DNA of 56,177 nt from an uncultured Pelagibacteraceae bacterium (GTDB lineage: Bacteria; Pseudomonadota; Alphaproteobacteria; Pelagibacterales; Pelagibacteraceae): NCBI GenBank assembly GCA_902592935.1, contig CACJGD010000004.1, positions 1-56,177 of the forward strand, written 5' to 3'. Shown piece after piece: positions 48,002-56,177 of the stretch (positions are counted from its first letter, which is position 1; every line of letters begins with the position of its first letter). The notes under the pieces were generated by a model. That model saw nothing but the letters and a program-made list of their open reading frames with translations, did no database searches and was not told where the DNA came from. Made by a program: the position numbers and the translations under genes.

Positions 48002-48304
48002 TCATCTAATTGGTTTGTGCACTGTTACTAATTTAGTTCCATCAGGAAAAGTAGCTTCTACTTGAACTTCCTTCACCATATCTGGAATGCCTTCCATGCA
48101 ATCCTTTTTTTTAATAACATGAGCTCCCGCCTCCATCAGTTCTGCAACACTTTTACCCTCTCTAGCTCCCTCAACTACGAAATCTGTTATTAAAGCTATA
48201 GCTTCTGGATAATTTAATTTTATACCTTTAGATAATCTATTTTTTGCAACAATTGCTGCAAGGCTTATTAAAAGTTTATCTTTTTCTCTAGGAGTAAGTT
48301 TCAT
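48002..48304 (-). CDS. ureA: Urease subunit gamma
   Basis: Small subunit of urease, 100 residues, of the length expected. It starts [20 protein letters not shown] and contains [29 protein letters not shown] and the [22 protein letters not shown] block, all typical of UreA. It directly follows ureD with no spacer. Confidence 0.97.
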
Positions 48305-49114
48305 TTATATATTCCATACTTTTGGTATCTTTGAACCTTCAAAAAAATAAGATAAAATTTTATCAATTGCAAATTTAAGATTATAACTATCTTTAGATAA
48401 CAGTCTTAGGATCAATTTATTATCCCAATGAGAATAATTTGAAGTTGTATTTTCATTGTTAGTTAAAGTTTCAGATAAATTATCAGCTTTATTTAAAAAT
48501 TTTTCTCCTACAATAATAATTGTCGCAACTGCAGAATTATTGTTTAATGTCGAAAAACTATTCAAATATTTTTTTTCAAATAAACCTGTATTTATTGCTT
48601 CAGAATGAATAAGTTTATCATCAATTTTAATATTCCAAAAATCTGAAAAATATCCCCTTTCAAATTTCTCTTTCATAGAAGTTCGTCCAAAAATTATATT
48701 TTCACAAAGAAGTAAATTTGAGTCTTTTGATAAATTAAAATTAATTTTTCTTTTTAAGTTACAATTATTAAATAAAATTAATTCTTTGGGTAACCAAAAT
48801 AAACTTGAATTATTTAACAAGTTTAAATTAATTTCTAAGTTGGCAGGATTACCAAAACCGCTATAAATTTTTTCTGCTGCTTGAGTTGAAATACAAAGTT
48901 TCGTTCTATCAATTTCAAATTCATAATCATATTCATCTCCAGAAGTAATTCCACCAGCAGTATTGATAAGCATCAACTGTTTTAAATTTTCATGAAAATC
49001 TGGCATCAAAGCTTTTAAAGCTCCTTGCTGAAATAGTTTTTGTAAATTTTGATCTTTTATTTTTATTTCTAAACTACCCTTAGATTTTTCTAGTTTCTTT
49101 TGACTAATATTCAT
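48305..49114 (-). CDS. ureD: Urease accessory protein UreD
   Basis: Scaffold (called UreH in Helicobacter) of the UreDFG nickel-insertion complex; it provides a tunnel for Ni2+. The 269 residues are divergent, but the family marks are clear: GALKALMP, LINTAGGITSGDEYDYEFEI, TQAAEKIYSG, WLPKELILFN, and FGRTSMKEKFERGYFSD. First gene of the ureDABCEFG operon, divergent from the Cys-tailed small protein. A weak promoter may lie in the short region 49115-49190, which is AT rich. Confidence 0.92.
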   Translation of the reverse strand: MNISQKKLEKSKGSLEIKIKDQNLQKLFQQGALKALMPDFHENLKQLMLINTAGGITSGDEYDYEFEIDRTKLCISTQAAEKIYSGFGNPANLEINLNLLNNSSLFWLPKELILFNNCNLKRKINFNLSKDSNLLLCENIIFGRTSMKEKFERGYFSDFWNIKIDDKLIHSEAINTGLFEKKYLNSFSTLNNNSAVATIIIVGEKFLNKADNLSETLTNNENTTSNYSHWDNKLILRLLSKDSYNLKFAIDKILSYFFEGSKIPKVWNI

Positions 49115-49442: not shown

Positions 49443-50375
49443 TTACTTTGTTGTTCCTATCAATGACACTTCACAATCATCATGTCCTGCAGTGAAACAT
49501 TTTTTTAAAGCTTGTGTTCTTGCTTTACCTTTAAGCTCATCTTCAAATCGAAATTGAACTGAAGGATCTGATTTTCTTGAAACAACAACAAAAAATTTAG
49601 TTGCACCTTGAGACGTATTAACTTTTTTAAATGAAGATTTTTTTTTATTTTTTATAACTAAATTCTTATATGTATACTTAGTTGTACCAGTATCTCCAAT
49701 TCTGTAAATTCCAATTTTAATATATGGTTTTGTTGGTCCATATGGCCCGTCAGTTTTCTTGGTTAACAATGGAACATCGTAGTGATGAAGGATAAATTTA
49801 TCATCAAGATAATATTTAACAGATAAAAATTTTGCTTTTTTTTGATAATCTATTTCAGCTTTAAATCTATAAGTTTTGCTAGTTTCTAATGTAATAAATT
49901 CTAACATTTTACAATTTTCTTGTGAACATTCTCCTTTTGGAAATTTTTGAATAATTTTCCATCCACCATCAACACCAATCCACGACGGAGGAGCACCACT
50001 ATTTCTACCATCATGAATTTGAAATATAGTCGATCTAGCTGATGGAGCACCTTCAATAGTAATATCCGTCTCAAAAATAGTATGTCCGATCGGAAGTTTA
50101 TGAGTTATTTCTTGTCTTCCAGAGTAAGGATAACCTCCAGCAGGTTTTTTATCTGTAGGACAACTTCCAACTTCTCCTTTATCAAGTTTGAAAACTACAT
50201 CTACTAATTTGAATTCATTTTTTGAATACTTTTTACTTTTTCCGTTTACAATTAAAGACTCTTTATCAATTACACCACAAGATATTTTCCATTTGTTTTT
50301 ATTTTTCCACTCATTAGCATATGCTGTAAAACAAAATGATAATATTAAAATAGTTATTATTAAAATTTTTTTCAT
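49443..50375 (-). CDS. Secreted polysaccharide lyase-like jelly-roll protein
   Basis: 310 residues with a signal peptide (about 20 residues, ending TAYANEW). The central domain (about 35-245) fits the concanavalin-like jelly roll of PL7/PL20/heparinase-I-type lyases. Three sites in the right order resemble PL7 alginate-lyase motifs: Arg87-x-Glu89 (GRQEI), Gln119-Ile120-His121 (FQIHDG), and YIKIGIYR (218-225). The last ~55 residues form a separate module with two cysteines (ALKKCFTAGHDDCEV). The polymer is unknown. It overlaps the serine-hydrolase gene by 4 bp. Lyase activity is inferred. Confidence 0.7.
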   Translation of the reverse strand: MKKILIITILILSFCFTAYANEWKNKNKWKISCGVIDKESLIVNGKSKKYSKNEFKLVDVVFKLDKGEVGSCPTDKKPAGGYPYSGRQEITHKLPIGHTIFETDITIEGAPSARSTIFQIHDGRNSGAPPSWIGVDGGWKIIQKFPKGECSQENCKMLEFITLETSKTYRFKAEIDYQKKAKFLSVKYYLDDKFILHHYDVPLLTKKTDGPYGPTKPYIKIGIYRIGDTGTTKYTYKNLVIKNKKKSSFKKVNTSQGATKFFVVVSRKSDPSVQFRFEDELKGKARTQALKKCFTAGHDDCEVSLIGTTK

Positions 50376-51748
50376 TTACCTTTTTTTATAACTGAATAAC
50401 CTATCTTCTTCCAATTGAAGTCTCGATGAATAGCTATTGTTGCAACAATTCTTCCTCTTTCAAAATCTATTGTAAATATTTGGCCACCATAACCATCCAT
50501 TATGAATATGGGTCTATTTTTCATTCCTTTAAGTCCTGTATGGAAAAAACCAGCATAAGATTTTGTGAGACCAAATGAGTCTTTGTTATTTTCCCATTGC
50601 ATATTTTTATTAATTTTTCTCTCAAACAAAGTTTTTAAATATTTTCCTTCACAGGTATCGTTTTGCCAATCATCCAACATAGCTTTTGACATTCTTAAGT
50701 AATCATATCTTGTAGCTAAAAAGGTGCTATGAGTTGATCGATCACCTGGTTCTGACGTCTGAGGTTCAACAAAATACATACCATGTTCAATTCCAACTTT
50801 TTTTCTAAAAATATCGTCAAGTAATTCTTGGTATTTTTCTTCTCCAATTTTGAAAATTAAATAATTCATAATCAAAGGAGGTGGAAAATTATTATAAGCA
50901 TATTTTCTTTTAGATTTTTTTATCTCCTTAAATTCATTCTCGATTGCTTTTTTAATTGTAGTGTTAGAAACGGAGCGCCCTGTTTTTTTATATCTATTGC
51001 TAGGATTATCTTTTGAGAAATATGCCTGGTCTCCAGCTGCCATATTTATAATATCAATAATTTTTTGATTATGATAAATACTATTCTCAATTAAAGGCCA
51101 ATCATCTAATTTGGCATCAATACTCTCAACATATCCTTTGCATATTGCATGTCCGAGAATATAAGATGCTAAACTTTTTCCAACTGATTGGGAATGAAAT
51201 TGAGTTTCATTTGTAAAAACTTTTCCAAATCTATCTTTCGGACTTATTTCATCAATAACAATTTTACCATCTTCATACAAAATATAACTTAGCAATGCAG
51301 TTTTCTGCATTTGTTTTTTAATATATTTATCTTCTCTTAAATCAAACTTGAATTGATATGGGTTATCTGAAGGTTTGATATCACTGTATCTGTCGTTATT
51401 TGTCCAATTTTCATTAACATATAACCAAAAATAATATAGCAAAGTTTCGTGGTTGGGTTTGACTGGTTTACCATTAATTAATTCTGGAATTTCTGAAGCT
51501 TCGTTATAATCATTAACGTCATAATTTCCTGTAATTTTTTTATCTTTATCACATTTGTTATAGTACCAAAGGTGGCTATATTTTTCTAAATCTTTGCATT
51601 TTCCGGTTGGTTCAGCAAATCCTACTTTGTAATATTGAGTAAACTCATTTTTCGCTAACCATTTATTAAATTCCTTAGTAAGTCTTGTTTCTGCGTGTAC
51701 GCTGTTTGAAAATATTATTAAAAATATAACTATTAAAATTCTTTTCAT
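50372..51748 (-). CDS. Secreted serine hydrolase of the beta-lactamase family
   Basis: 458 residues with a signal peptide (ending SVHAETR). It shows the penicillin-binding/class C fold: nucleophile Ser188 and Lys191 in SVGKS, a YxN triad (Tyr285-Asn286-Asn287, KYAYNNFPP), and later conserved blocks (GDRSTHSTFLATRYDYLRMSKAMLDDW, AGFFHTGLKGMKNRPIFIMDGYGGQ). The N-terminal ~130 residues are an extension before the catalytic domain. Members act as esterases, carboxypeptidases or beta-lactamases. Position between two lyase-like proteins hints at a de-acylating esterase, unproven. Confidence 0.8.
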   Translation of the reverse strand: MKRILIVIFLIIFSNSVHAETRLTKEFNKWLAKNEFTQYYKVGFAEPTGKCKDLEKYSHLWYYNKCDKDKKITGNYDVNDYNEASEIPELINGKPVKPNHETLLYYFWLYVNENWTNNDRYSDIKPSDNPYQFKFDLREDKYIKKQMQKTALLSYILYEDGKIVIDEISPKDRFGKVFTNETQFHSQSVGKSLASYILGHAICKGYVESIDAKLDDWPLIENSIYHNQKIIDIINMAAGDQAYFSKDNPSNRYKKTGRSVSNTTIKKAIENEFKEIKKSKRKYAYNNFPPPLIMNYLIFKIGEEKYQELLDDIFRKKVGIEHGMYFVEPQTSEPGDRSTHSTFLATRYDYLRMSKAMLDDWQNDTCEGKYLKTLFERKINKNMQWENNKDSFGLTKSYAGFFHTGLKGMKNRPIFIMDGYGGQIFTIDFERGRIVATIAIHRDFNWKKIGYSVIKKGK

Positions 51749-52921
51749 TTAGAACTGTGTAACCTTTTTTTGATAATGGATATAACAACCGTTATTATCT
51801 AAATCCAAAACATTGGGAAAATTTTCTTTACATTTCTCAATTCCATTATTAGCTGCTGATTCCTTTGTAAAACCTGTATTTTTCAATAAATATTTTTCAT
51901 CTTTTTTATTTTTTATAATTGCTAAAAAATTTCCTTTTAAATCTTGATATTTAATTTCTTTATGAATTTTTTTTGCTTTAATACTTTTTATTACTGTAGC
52001 TCCCTTGGGTTTATTATAAGTAGATGAAACTCTATATTTAAGACTGGTAGCTGAGACTCTCTCTTTTGACTTATAATTACATTTTTTATTGTCCATAACT
52101 TCATTACATTTTTTGCTAATGGTATAATCTTTTATAAATAAAGTAGATGATGTTATAGAATTAGGATCAAAATTTGATAAACGCTCCCAATACCTATAAA
52201 GACCAATTTTTAATGCCATTCCTTTCCCTAAAATTATATTAGGTCCATAACTTTCAATAATTCTGTCATTATCTAACCACATAATAAATTCACCATCATC
52301 TTTATCTGATACTTTTATTTTCATTAAGATTGTACGAAATTTCTTAAATGTACTCTTTCCTCCTAGTTGGAACTTATAGGTTGTTTTTTTAAATCTATTC
52401 GCAGTTGGATCCTTTTTAGTCCAGAAAACCTCTTCTATGAAATGATGTAGAAATTGAAATCTATTTGGAGGTTCGTTTTCATCAGTAGTATACATTATTT
52501 GCATTGATGGAAAAATAATTTCACCATCTTTTTTCGTTCCGACAGTTTGAAATATGTTTGCCGCATGATTTTCACCTGGGTCAATTTTAAAAATATATTT
52601 AACATAAAACTCTTTACCAATTTTATAGTACTTATTTTTCTTATTTTTAAATTCCCATCTTTGAGCTTGTGAATCTGAAACATTCCAATCTTCTGGATGT
52701 CCTTCCATTTCATAATCTAATGTAATACCAATTGCATTATCAGTATTTGAATAACTTAAAATTTTTTCCTCTTTATTTAAAGAATCCTCTGCTTTATAAA
52801 ATTTTTTTGCATCTCCACCAAGTATTTCTTTTTTAAAAATTTTTAAAGGATTATCTTTTGAATAAGAAATATTACATGAAAATAAAGTTATAAAAAAAAC
52901 TGTTAAAATTTTTTTCATCAT
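51749..52921 (-). CDS. Secreted lyase-like jelly-roll protein with C-terminal Cys module
   Basis: 390 residues with a signal peptide (ending CNISYSKDN). The middle (about 60-270) looks like a beta-sandwich of the heparin-lyase/alginate-lyase type: QRWEFKNK (Arg-x-Glu), ANIFQTVGTKK, and ALKIGLYRYW echo the order of motifs in the 310-residue protein nearby, but the QxH site is not kept (FQTV), so activity is doubtful. A C-terminal module (AANNGIEKCKENF...GCYIHY) matches that of the other protein. A lone promoter is seen upstream. Confidence 0.62.
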   Translation of the reverse strand: MMKKILTVFFITLFSCNISYSKDNPLKIFKKEILGGDAKKFYKAEDSLNKEEKILSYSNTDNAIGITLDYEMEGHPEDWNVSDSQAQRWEFKNKKNKYYKIGKEFYVKYIFKIDPGENHAANIFQTVGTKKDGEIIFPSMQIMYTTDENEPPNRFQFLHHFIEEVFWTKKDPTANRFKKTTYKFQLGGKSTFKKFRTILMKIKVSDKDDGEFIMWLDNDRIIESYGPNIILGKGMALKIGLYRYWERLSNFDPNSITSSTLFIKDYTISKKCNEVMDNKKCNYKSKERVSATSLKYRVSSTYNKPKGATVIKSIKAKKIHKEIKYQDLKGNFLAIIKNKKDEKYLLKNTGFTKESAANNGIEKCKENFPNVLDLDNNGCYIHYQKKVTQF

Positions 52922-53045: not shown

Positions 53046-54056
53046 TTAAAATTCTAAAGTTTTTAACGACCCATCTTTATAGGTAAACTCTACTTTTTTT
53101 TCAGAAATACTTTTAATTGATGTAAATCCATCATATTCAGCAATGAATTCATTTAATTTCTTTCTACCTTTTTTGCTCATTTTTTTTCCTGGAGCATTTA
53201 CTCCAACATCGATAATCAGCTCAGCTCCATTTAAAAAAGCTTTTACCCAAGCTTTTACAGGAGCACCACAAGTCATAGCTTCAGTTAACCAAATAGGTTT
53301 ATTTACATCTACACTTTTTAATAAAGCTGCAAATTCATCTACCCATAGCTCTTTATCACACTGTCCGTCTGGCCCACTTATGTGGTGAATATTTGCAATA
53401 TCAAAATGATCTTTAATTTTTGGCAAAGCTGACCTCCAATATTTTTTACTTTCAGGAAACATTCCAGCGGCACCAGCCATAACAATAACTGCATCTGGCT
53501 GTTTTTCTTTAATTACTTTTGAGGAAAAATTAAATATTTCAACAAAATCCTCCTCGCTTCCTTTAAAGAACATTTTAAACTCTGGTTCATTCATAATATC
53601 CCAATATTTTATGGGTTTGGTTAATCCAGGCATGTCATTTGAACCGTCACCATCGTATCGATCTATTAATTTTACAAGAAAATTTTTGTAATCATCCATT
53701 GAACAAGGTTTACTTAAATATTTTGTAAAACGTTTCCCAAAAGGACTTTTAGCTTTTTTTCTTTTGCAAGATTTTTGCTCCCAATTTGCATGAGGCCAAA
53801 TAGTAGCTAATATTGTTTGATTATGTTCTTGAGCATAAACGACATATTTGTCAACTTCTTCCCAAGTAAACTTTCCCTTTTCTTTTTCAATATGATTCCA
53901 AATAAAAGGTCCTGGATGAGGTCTAACCCATTGATTATCTTTACCTCGCATTTTTTCATCTCGCATTTCTGTTAACTCTCCAAATCTAGATTCAGATGAT
54001 GAAGTGTTTGTAATTAAAATAAAAATAAAAAAACTTGTTAAAAAATTTTTTATCAT
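53046..54056 (-). CDS. Secreted glycoside hydrolase (clan GH-A TIM barrel)
   Basis: 336 residues with a signal peptide (about 21 residues). The fold is a retaining GH-A barrel: substrate-near WVRPHPGPFIWNHIEKEKGKFTW at the start, IWPHANWEQ, the acid/base Glu157 in WDIMNEPEF, and the nucleophile Glu259 in PIWLTEAM, spaced by 102 residues as is usual for the clan. Similarity of the early motifs is to GH39/GH5-type enzymes. The substrate is unknown. It starts 8 bp after the Met-rich gene and is presumably co-transcribed with it. Confidence 0.78.
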   Translation of the reverse strand: MIKNFLTSFFIFILITNTSSSESRFGELTEMRDEKMRGKDNQWVRPHPGPFIWNHIEKEKGKFTWEEVDKYVVYAQEHNQTILATIWPHANWEQKSCKRKKAKSPFGKRFTKYLSKPCSMDDYKNFLVKLIDRYDGDGSNDMPGLTKPIKYWDIMNEPEFKMFFKGSEEDFVEIFNFSSKVIKEKQPDAVIVMAGAAGMFPESKKYWRSALPKIKDHFDIANIHHISGPDGQCDKELWVDEFAALLKSVDVNKPIWLTEAMTCGAPVKAWVKAFLNGAELIIDVGVNAPGKKMSKKGRKKLNEFIAEYDGFTSIKSISEKKVEFTYKDGSLKTLEF

Positions 54057-54064
54057 TAAAAAAT

Positions 54065-56177
54065 TTATTTTGGATCTGGTCCTGGTCCTGGATCTCCTGG
54101 TCCACCTGGGCCACCAGGTCCTGGATCTCCTGGGCCACCAGGTCCTGGATCTCCTGGTCCACCAGGTGCTCCCATTGCACCTTCAACAGCACCACCAATA
54201 TCTCCCATAGCACCGCCCATCATATCTCCTCCCATGGCTCCACCTATGTCGCCCATAGGTCCGCCATCAGGTCCGCCCATGGCTCCACCCATGTCGCCCA
54301 TTGGACCCATATCTCCTGGACCAGCTGGACCGCCTGGACCGCCTGCCATTGCACCAGCCATAGCTCCACCCATAGCTCCTGACATTCCTTCTTGCATAGC
54401 ACCACCCATAGCTTTACCCATGTCACCGTCACCCATTCCACCAACTCCCATTGCTGCTCCCATTGCGTGAGAACCCATTGCTGAAGCTGCTACTCCTTGT
54501 GCGGACATGGCTGCTCCCATTGCAGCGCCTGCTAATCCTTCACCTACTTCATTTGCTGCGTTTGCTACTGATCCTATTGCAGCACCAGGGTCTATACCTG
54601 TACCCATTGCAGCTGAAACTTGTCCCAAATTCATTCCACCACTTATTGCACCACCTTCTAAACCTTCAGGTGCTCCTCCCATAATATCTCCCAATTTTGC
54701 ACCTCCTGGAGTTCCAGTTATTCCCATGCTTGCTGCCATTTCAGGATTCATTTGTGCATCTAAATTCATTTCACCCATTCCAACCATTCCACCACTCATA
54801 GCTGCTAGTCCCATGTCACCGCCTTCCATTCCCATTGCGCCACTTAAGCCTTTCATACCTTCTGCTCCCATCGCAGCCATAGTTCCTTGGTTAACTAATC
54901 CAACTTCCATCATATCTCCCATTTGACCAGCAGATAAATTTCCTGTTTTTGCTAAATCAGCAACACCTTGAACAGCTTTGCTTCCAAGGCCAGCAACGTT
55001 AGTTGACATTACGGCAGTAATATCCATTCCTGCCATTCCTGCAGCTCCCATACTTGCAACCATTCCAGGAGTTAATCCTGTCTGTGCAGCCATATCCGCC
55101 ATTCCTAATTTCTCCATTGAACCAACATCCATTCCTGTCATATTCGCCATTGCTTCACCCATTTCAGCTTTTCCCATTTCTTGCATAACGTCTCCCATCA
55201 TCATTCCTGATGATGGTGTATCACCTGTCATCATAGCTCCCATAGCTAAAGCGGTCATTCCTTCAGGAGGAGCCATTGCACCAGGCAAACCTCCAGCTAA
55301 AGCTGGTTTGGCCATGATCATTGCCCCCATCATCATACCGGATTCACTTATATTTTCAGGCATTTCTAACGCTTCTGGTGAAGCCATATTATTTGCGAAT
55401 GAATCTTTCATTTCCATTCCTCTTTGAATAGCATTTTTTTGGCTTGGTGCTTTTCCAGATATAGCTTGGCTTATCATTCCAACGCTTCCAGACATTGCAG
55501 TAGCAATGCCAACTTCAGGATCAGCAAAAGCAGTAGATAAAGTTTCTGCCATTTGTTCCATTCCCATGTCAGCCATTGCTTTTCCAATTTCTTTCATACC
55601 CTCAATACCAGTCATCCCTTTAGCCATATCCGTCATGCCTTCAATTCCTATACTGGCCTCCATACTTTTCATCATATCTTCGCCCATACCTTTTGCGCTC
55701 ATGGTTGCTACTAAAGCACCTGTCATTGTTTGACCCATTTTACCCATTGCCTCTGGATTAGCAGCTAATGTCTCTAGTGCAGCTGTTGCAGCACCTACTG
55801 GCAATGCATCTAAAGCTCCAGCCATCATTGCTGGATTCATTCCCATCTCAGCTACATTCATAGAAGCGAAATCTCCAGGTTTAAAATTTGCCATATCAAA
55901 ATTAGCGGAGCCTGTGATTGCTGTCATATCTACCATTCCTGCAGTCGCCAGTCCCTGCATCGCAGCTCCCATTCCTATGCCTTGTTCATCAAGATTGCCC
56001 ATCATGCCTTTTGCATCAAAACCTGCGGTACCTAATGCATTCATTTGTCCAGCCATTTTTTGTAACGATACAACTTTTCCTGCACCCATTTGTCCAGCAA
56101 TACTAGATAATGCAGCCATTTCTTCAGGAGAAAAATCTTTTGCAAAATCTATTCCTGACATATCAAGAGCATTTGGA
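54065..56177 (-). CDS. Long Met/Gly/Ala-rich repeat protein with collagen-like tail (C-terminal part)
   Basis: Open frame of at least 703 residues with no stop up to the window edge; the ATG at 56161 is probably internal because the frame continues upstream (PNALD) and no ribosome site is seen. By eye about 15% of residues are Met, with many short GM, AM, MG steps, few aromatic residues, no Cys seen and little charge. Loose repeats of the type 'PEEMA..xxMG' and 'MGxxGM' run throughout. The last ~120 residues become Gly/Pro/Asp-rich (GGAMGG, GPMGDMGG, and a GPGDPGPGG tail). No known domain is recognised. The GC content is above that of the neighbours because of Gly, Ala and Pro codons. Confidence 0.75.
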   Translation of the reverse strand, partial: PNALDMSGIDFAKDFSPEEMAALSSIAGQMGAGKVVSLQKMAGQMNALGTAGFDAKGMMGNLDEQGIGMGAAMQGLATAGMVDMTAITGSANFDMANFKPGDFASMNVAEMGMNPAMMAGALDALPVGAATAALETLAANPEAMGKMGQTMTGALVATMSAKGMGEDMMKSMEASIGIEGMTDMAKGMTGIEGMKEIGKAMADMGMEQMAETLSTAFADPEVGIATAMSGSVGMISQAISGKAPSQKNAIQRGMEMKDSFANNMASPEALEMPENISESGMMMGAMIMAKPALAGGLPGAMAPPEGMTALAMGAMMTGDTPSSGMMMGDVMQEMGKAEMGEAMANMTGMDVGSMEKLGMADMAAQTGLTPGMVASMGAAGMAGMDITAVMSTNVAGLGSKAVQGVADLAKTGNLSAGQMGDMMEVGLVNQGTMAAMGAEGMKGLSGAMGMEGGDMGLAAMSGGMVGMGEMNLDAQMNPEMAASMGITGTPGGAKLGDIMGGAPEGLEGGAISGGMNLGQVSAAMGTGIDPGAAIGSVANAANEVGEGLAGAAMGAAMSAQGVAASAMGSHAMGAAMGVGGMGDGDMGKAMGGAMQEGMSGAMGGAMAGAMAGGPGGPAGPGDMGPMGDMGGAMGGPDGGPMGDIGGAMGGDMMGGAMGDIGGAVEGAMGAPGGPGDPGPGGPGDPGPGGPGGPGDPGPGPDPK
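54084..54164 (-). repeat. Tandem repeat coding the Gly-Pro-Asp tail
   Basis: Three copies of a 24-base unit beginning GGTCCTGGATCTCC on the plus strand (54084, 54117 and 54141); the first copy has a 9-base insert. In the protein each unit reads as Gly-Gly-Pro-Gly-Asp-Pro-Gly-Pro in register, so the repeat is part of the collagen-like tail. Confidence 0.85.

Follow-up and report, generated by a model that had tools for sequence, protein, structure and literature searches.

Why would a SAR11 bacterium spend so much methionine on a single protein? 'Ca. Pelagibacter ubique' is unable to use sulfate and relies on sulfur in reduced organic form (PMC5069961), and yet some of its relatives encode a protein with a predicted export signal and about 100 Met residues under strong selection. 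The role of this protein, once known, would tell us on what, beyond the cytoplasm, these marine bacteria spend their sulfur. The case discussed here comes from a 56,177-nucleotide stretch of an uncultured Pelagibacteraceae bacterium, the window, which spans a whole contig. Its last gene on the reverse strand, gene0 (54065..56176), encodes a Met-rich, probably exported protein and runs for 703 codons from the contig end to a stop codon at 54065-54067.

An earlier note, made from the letters alone, had described this frame as long, open, rich in Met and free of Cys, and the composition bears this out (Met 15.4%, Gly 21.9%, Ala 16.8%, Cys 0). Among 412 other ORFs of at least 150 amino acids the mean is 2.8% Met and the maximum 7.1%; this background comes from the loci retrieved and from the end of the window, and it contains many mutual homologues and some sequences from one genome taken twice. 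The gene also stands out in GC content (47% versus 31% for the window) and in GC3 (0.265 versus 0.126-0.207 in eight neighbouring genes), although by our own arithmetic the ATG codons of a Met-rich gene would by themselves account for roughly this GC3 surplus. The label of low complexity holds for a variable Pro/Gly-rich C-terminal tail (54065..54172, reverse strand; GPGDPGPGG... by eye), which differs between orthologues and to which partial collagen-type Gly-X-Y is confined in some of them, again by eye. It does not hold for the remaining sequence, which is position-specific and highly conserved.

As the note had also stated, the N-terminus lies outside the window. The contig end truncates gene0 at its 5' end, and the 703 codons are the 3' part of a gene of about 810-850 codons; judged from full-length homologues, some 110-115 N-terminal residues are missing. 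These homologues were found by a contig scan with exact peptide patterns, which favours close relatives. It returned 30 loci, all in records titled Pelagibacteraceae, in agreement with the suspected SAR11 host. In 29 of them the frame has 12.8-16.0% Met, three of these frames ending at a contig end, and the remaining locus, L035, carries a full-length homologue with only 3.4% Met. A profile search added a second Met-poor, full-length homologue, L049 (2.9% Met). Complete Met-rich proteins measure 808-852 amino acids, with starts placed by script. In full-length homologues the N-terminus is hydrophobic and resembles a signal peptide, usually with ...AKAND at its end, which makes the proposed surface or fibre role plausible. 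Among the tabulated Met-rich proteins Cys is absent and His does not exceed 0.4%.

How widespread is this protein? A gene0 profile matches 15 of 397 Pelagibacteraceae genomes drawn: 13 are Met-rich, G304 is Met-poor, and the match in G195 is a short relative. When 297 genomes were drawn from the whole order, in a set that overlaps the family draw and for which the number of other families represented is not given, 14 had a match, all from the same family. A scan of viral contigs with two patterns confirmed no relative among the 61 stretches that matched a pattern.

Selection on gene0 can be read from its relatives. Across 351 pairs of 27 sequences, dN/dS (Nei-Gojobori) ranges from 0.056 to 0.253 with a median of 0.133, by which estimate gene0 is under purifying selection, and no matching frame contains an internal stop, so that the drift of the frame named in the note as a possible refutation was not seen. 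Its proposal of strong selection with conserved Met is likewise upheld. The 114 columns with a Met majority have a mean conservation of 0.929, and 60% of them are invariant. The corresponding means are 0.856 for Leu, 0.846 for Ile and 0.838 for Val (53%, 22% and 36% invariant). Met thus has the highest mean among the common residues; Gly (0.922) and Pro (0.913) come close, and Leu, Ile, Val and Phe lie below it. Where Met is replaced in these columns, it is chiefly by Ile (86 cases), Leu (35) and Val (23).

The same exchange separates the two forms of the protein. At 117 Met-majority columns, counted in a different alignment from the one used for conservation, L035 has Ile at 31, Leu at 29, Val at 13, Met at 16, a gap at 10 and other residues at 18. 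In a FastTree tree L035 and L049 lie on one side of a single branch and all Met-rich proteins, with 12-16% Met, on the other. Rooted with both Met-poor proteins as outgroup, the tree implies one change between the forms and does not give its direction. More distant second genes of the same arrangement, described below, contain 1.6-3.4% Met in those whose values were seen, which suggests that the Met-poor form came first. The matched homologues are a ready pair for testing the effects of Met versus Ile and Leu in a protein and, together with the start of the neighbouring gene, are of more value for follow-up than any proven function.

What does such an exchange cost? Per residue, the gene0 product in the window contains 3.94 C, 1.10 N and 0.154 S, compared with 5.16 C (sd 0.23), 1.345 N (sd 0.078) and 0.038 S in the background. 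The Met-poor homologues are intermediate in C (4.47 and 4.51) and N (1.18 and 1.21) and equal the background in S; the products of the adjoining genes gene1 and gene2 and of the island cargo around them are not cheap in elemental composition. The low cost in C and N leaves the rise in S unaccounted for. Could the sulfur itself be the purpose? A store of sulfur or methionine, as considered in the note, would suit the need of SAR11 for reduced sulfur (PMC5069961). The signal-peptide-like start weakens this idea, since an exported protein would be a poor store, and so does the outcome of an Rfam search of eight loci at gathering thresholds, which gave no SAM riboswitch and nothing apart from a glycine riboswitch in L035 and, in L008, the SAR11_0636 sRNA. 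A mere store would moreover not need fixed sites, and the Met sites are position-specific. We regard a store as the least probable of the explanations weighed here.

The spacing of the Met residues bears on a second proposal of the note, metal binding, considered here for copper or another soft metal. Met is a soft-metal ligand, a content of 15% is extreme, and pairs at i+3 and i+4, which are known metal spacings, lie at or above chance (z +1.5 and +2.5, i+4 being one of 30 lags). Met-Met and Met-x-Met occur less often than in shuffled sequences (z -2.0 at i+1, -2.3 at i+2), which speaks against clustered Met. Together with the lack of Cys, the scarcity of His and the fact that no metal gene was recognised among the annotated neighbours, this makes a metal binder very improbable. 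The spacing also contains a weak helix-type periodicity of Met. A regular amphipathic helix is not supported, because Met shows no such signal towards Leu, Ile, Val and Phe (z -0.2 at both i+3 and i+4) and hydrophobic pairs are depleted at i+7 (z -2.5).

AlphaFold2 models of one Met-rich and one Met-poor homologue, each built with a 30-row alignment, are both all-helical and poor (mean pLDDT 46.6 and 48.9, pTM 0.33 and 0.31), and in the Met-rich model a pLDDT of 70-84 is limited to the signal peptide, parts of residues 80-110 and residues of about 150-240. Searches with these low-confidence models gave no match at E 0.001 in Foldseek and mostly helical bundles and repeats in VIA-align (best Z 8.6 over 53-59 residues). 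The window frame matched no PDB sequence at E 1. Family libraries were equally silent, in line with the note, which had recognised no domain. The Met-rich protein of L007 had no match in Pfam, NCBIfam or PADLOC and a best E of 0.26 in PHROGs; for the Met-poor protein of L035 the best values were 0.11 (Pfam), 0.1 (NCBIfam) and 0.23 (PHROGs), with none in PADLOC. The literature searched, in which most subscription papers were outside reach, held no account of the protein or of the gene pair to which it belongs.

Are there known Met-rich systems with which gene0 can be compared? The closest in description are MrpX and BcrX of Azospira suillum and Brucella melitensis, Met-rich polypeptides for which a role against oxidants is proposed; BcrX is described as a protein of the MXKDX-repeat type whose gene accompanies MsrQP next to an ECF sigma/anti-sigma pair (PMC8315932). 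By analogy, exported Met could scavenge reactive oxygen or halogen species close to the cell, with or without later reduction. Besides this precedent, the predicted export signal, the counterpart of the described periplasmic location of MrpX, and a Met content kept at 12-16% throughout the Met-rich group favour such a sacrificial sink. By description rather than sequence comparison, gene0 is set apart by its length of about 810-850 amino acids, its Met-poor homologues and a lack of co-occurrence with MsrP, and an MXKDX repeat was not seen by eye in its homologues. Neither MsrPQ nor an ECF sigma or anti-sigma gene was recognised among the neighbours, which are partly annotated and of which few were scanned against families. 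The positions of Met argue against a sink as well, as they correspond to Ile, Leu and Val in a Met-poor homologue and are thus likely packing sites. A second comparison, by description only, is with yeast ataxin-2 (Pbp1), which is reported to have a Met-rich low-complexity domain with redox-controlled phase separation (cited in PMC7402097; PMC11132505); it shares the richness in Met and differs in being intracellular and eukaryotic.

Among 28 hand-picked genomes, MsrP (NF003767) occurs in 6 of 13 Met-rich ones and in 8 of 15 others, so there is no general link to Met-richness; of the seven Met-rich genomes in which it was not found, three are at least 90% complete. Presence follows the clade of gene0 instead. 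The tree contains a clade of 20 tips (local support 0.999) that includes the window gene0, and all five Met-rich genomes matched to it carry MsrP; G000, placed there by the tree and 75% complete, does not. Outside this clade it was found in one of seven Met-rich genomes (G316). We therefore consider a sink for oxidants unlikely, above all in the MsrP-coupled form. Taken as a whole, the interpretation in the earlier note is partly supported.

More can be learned from the gene directly upstream. In the relatives gene0 is preceded by gene1, a gene absent from the contig of the window. Its product of about 215-260 amino acids opens with a signal-peptide-like start and contains a CxxC motif as well as a Lys-rich stretch. 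The distance from the gene1 stop to the gene0 start is -5 to +5 nt in 25 of 26 loci, the exception being L036, where the gene1 frame ends early; in five loci gene0 has a usable TTG start nine nt further downstream. Library searches with gene1 gave weak matches only, with a best Pfam E of 0.0026 in one of 12 members, a best NCBIfam E of 0.017, a PADLOC match to JetC (E 4.9e-4, 16 bits, one of three proteins) that long helices may cause, and a PDB profile match to Vps4 (E 0.029). Gene0 itself has a conserved domain in its N-terminal part, the N-domain. Its C-terminal half (profile positions 123-225) lies at 55868..56176 on the reverse strand, is detected also by profiles built without distant members, and is common to Met-poor and distant second genes. 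It has no convincing family match, with a best Pfam E of 0.0069 in one of ten members and a weak PDB profile match to apolipoprotein A-IV (0.018).

Among 197 family genomes, the N-domain profile and the gene1 profile match 16 each, profiles that include members from some of the genomes they then match, and 15 of the 17 genomes matched by either carry both, adjacent or in a single frame. G000 is without gene1 because its contig ends there, and G050 has gene1 alone; in G195 the gene1 match is split in two, and one part contains an internal TGA. Test profiles without distant members were run on 214 frames for ten distant loci (L101-L110). A Met-rich-only profile recovered four of the ten second genes (E 7e-10 to 1e-5), a profile of Met-rich and Met-poor proteins six (weakest 8e-4), and the gene1 profile eight of the ten gene1 proteins. 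Among the matches listed, G117 has gene1 and N-domain in a single frame of 916 amino acids (E 1.9e-45 and 7.1e-21), and G127 has a frame of 599 amino acids with a strong gene1 and a weak N-domain match (E 7.3e-5), probably a second fusion.

The Met-poor pairs of Pelagibacteraceae thus share gene order, N-domain and signal-peptide-like starts with the Met-rich form, to which L035 and L049 are full-length homologues. They differ in a Met content of about 3%, and the distant ones also in their C-terminal parts. Past the N-domain the distant second proteins among the matches listed look unrelated by eye, with coiled-coil-like parts (about 1,480 amino acids), repeats of about 37 or about 130 amino acids, or short Ala/Ser tails. 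One of them, at L103:4682-6328, appears by eye to consist mostly of tandem repeats of about 37 amino acids (YTQKNMQNLGYSKQEI...). Judged by gene order and profiles, the gene1-gene0 pair is an undescribed two-gene module that is kept in other SAR11.

Our best guess is that gene0, a real and conserved protein, is a surface or matrix polymer. In this reading, to which we give even chances, it would be the large subunit of an exported module, a helical protein assembled with gene1 in which Met is the main hydrophobic residue. The module would be self-contained within Pelagibacteraceae, and both products would enter export through their signal-peptide-like starts. The helical N-domain may cooperate with gene1, as adjacency and fusion suggest, and would be followed by what the models present as a long array of short helices and then by the Pro/Gly tail. 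Most likely, gene0 would form or coat an abundant extracellular or surface structure. With Met taking packing sites held by Ile, Leu and Val in the Met-poor homologue, and Gly and Ala plentiful, the resulting polymer would be cheap in C and N and costly in S. Against this reading, the Met-rich form is accessory (13 of 397 family genomes), which is hard to square with a basic structural need.

A different role could follow from the surroundings of the module. Directly after gene0 lies gene2 (53046..54056, reverse strand), with a signal-peptide-like start and weak matches to GH10 (E 0.0026) and GH35 (E 0.0027) below the cut-off. It occupies this place in 24 of 29 Met-rich loci as well as in the window. 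The order gene1-gene0-gene2 often stands within a variable island that contains PF14099 lyases or alginate-lyase-like, FG-GAP or DUF1800/DUF1501 proteins. In the window the cargo comprises two polysaccharide-lyase-like proteins over the cut-off for PF14099 (51749..52921, E 8.3e-9, and 49443..50375, E 5.9e-8) and a protein of 458 amino acids without Pfam match at E 0.1 (50372..51748), all on the reverse strand. Gene0 might then serve as scaffold or matrix for the lyases and glycosidases of the island, several of which share a C-terminal segment. Elsewhere the gene1-gene0 pair stands without island cargo: the Met-poor and distant pairs are flanked by genes without recognised cargo, which for the distant pairs we take to be of housekeeping type, and in L025, L030 and L031 the flank examined contains no gene2 and none of the cargo clusters. 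A scaffold for the island is therefore quite improbable.

The shared segment is DUF4189-like and occurs at the C-terminus of different island enzymes (two lyase types and an alginate-lyase-like one), according to a profile seeded with those same proteins. Its carriers are both lyase-like proteins of the window (51749-52921 and 49443-50375), L017:10659-12152 and proteins in L012, L016, L018 and L020; two L020 enzymes end in identical last residues. It is possible that the segment is a sorting or anchoring tag. Gene clusters around 48002-49114, which with its neighbours we assume to be urease genes (ureA-like and ureD-like), adjoin the island and recur in L013. A DUF1800-DUF1501 pair, the second member with a weak Tat-signal match, is found at L007:1634-4212 and in other loci beside genes that are presumably glycosyltransferase-like. 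Pairs of this kind have been reported next to chitin synthases of bacteria (PMC5122149).

How is gene1 itself translated? The question arises for the 20-tip clade of the window, in which 18 loci have the 5' end of gene1 and the other two are without that end. In all 18 the gene1 frame contains no ATG, GTG, TTG or CTG before codon 29. The first possible start comes at codon 48 or later in 15 loci, and in the other three it is a TTG at codon 29, behind the most hydrophobic stretch. Coding-type evolution is seen from the signal-peptide end to about the first in-frame ATG, where pN/pS is 0.15 (pS 0.77), compared with 0.12 in the rest of the gene, 0.65 in the hydrophobic part and 1.42, with no sign of residue constraint, in the first ten codons (17 of the 18 loci, L036 left out). 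An ATG in another frame precedes a block TTA GCC AGG by 9 nt (15 loci), 12 nt (one) or 21 nt (two), a constancy of frame that depends on few events. This leader needs a +1 shift to enter gene1 and without it stops at most four codons after LAR in all 17 loci examined. The 9-nt block is present in 18 of 18 loci, 17 of which were seen with it although it was no selection criterion; in two of the locus sets its invariance is true by construction, because it was used to find the loci. Within the block, GCC and AGG are rare synonymous codons (6.7% of Ala and 7.0% of Arg codons in the loci). From sequence comparison, gene1 of this clade thus appears to depend on a +1 ribosomal frameshift close to ATG...TTA GCC AGG, and if confirmed its start would add an example of such frameshifting in a streamlined bacterium. 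Shine-Dalgarno-like strings from a short list precede the leader ATG in only five of 18 loci, which counts against efficient initiation there. A non-canonical start codon of gene1 is a possible alternative; neither ATT nor ATA comes first at any fixed place.

A bolder reading, to which we give somewhat less than even chances, is an exported two-gene system in which an ordinary helical large subunit, rich in Ile and Leu, turned once into a polymer built on Met; its partner in this clade would be made only by a programmed +1 frameshift in the first codons that sets the ratio of partner to polymer. Outside the clade, gene1 starts with an ordinary in-frame ATG in ten loci, a count without the disrupted L025. 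None of 137 family genomes drawn contains the pattern together with its ATG, and in none of them is an assembled gene1 of the clade known to be present. The conserved ATG and TTAGCCAGG, in the other frame, can be inspected at L014:6910-7000 and in 17 further loci (L007-L010, L012, L013, L015-L022, L027, L033, L036). A broken or shortened gene1 frame is seen at L036:6936-7475 and L025:7144-7632, as a result of either assembly error or loss.
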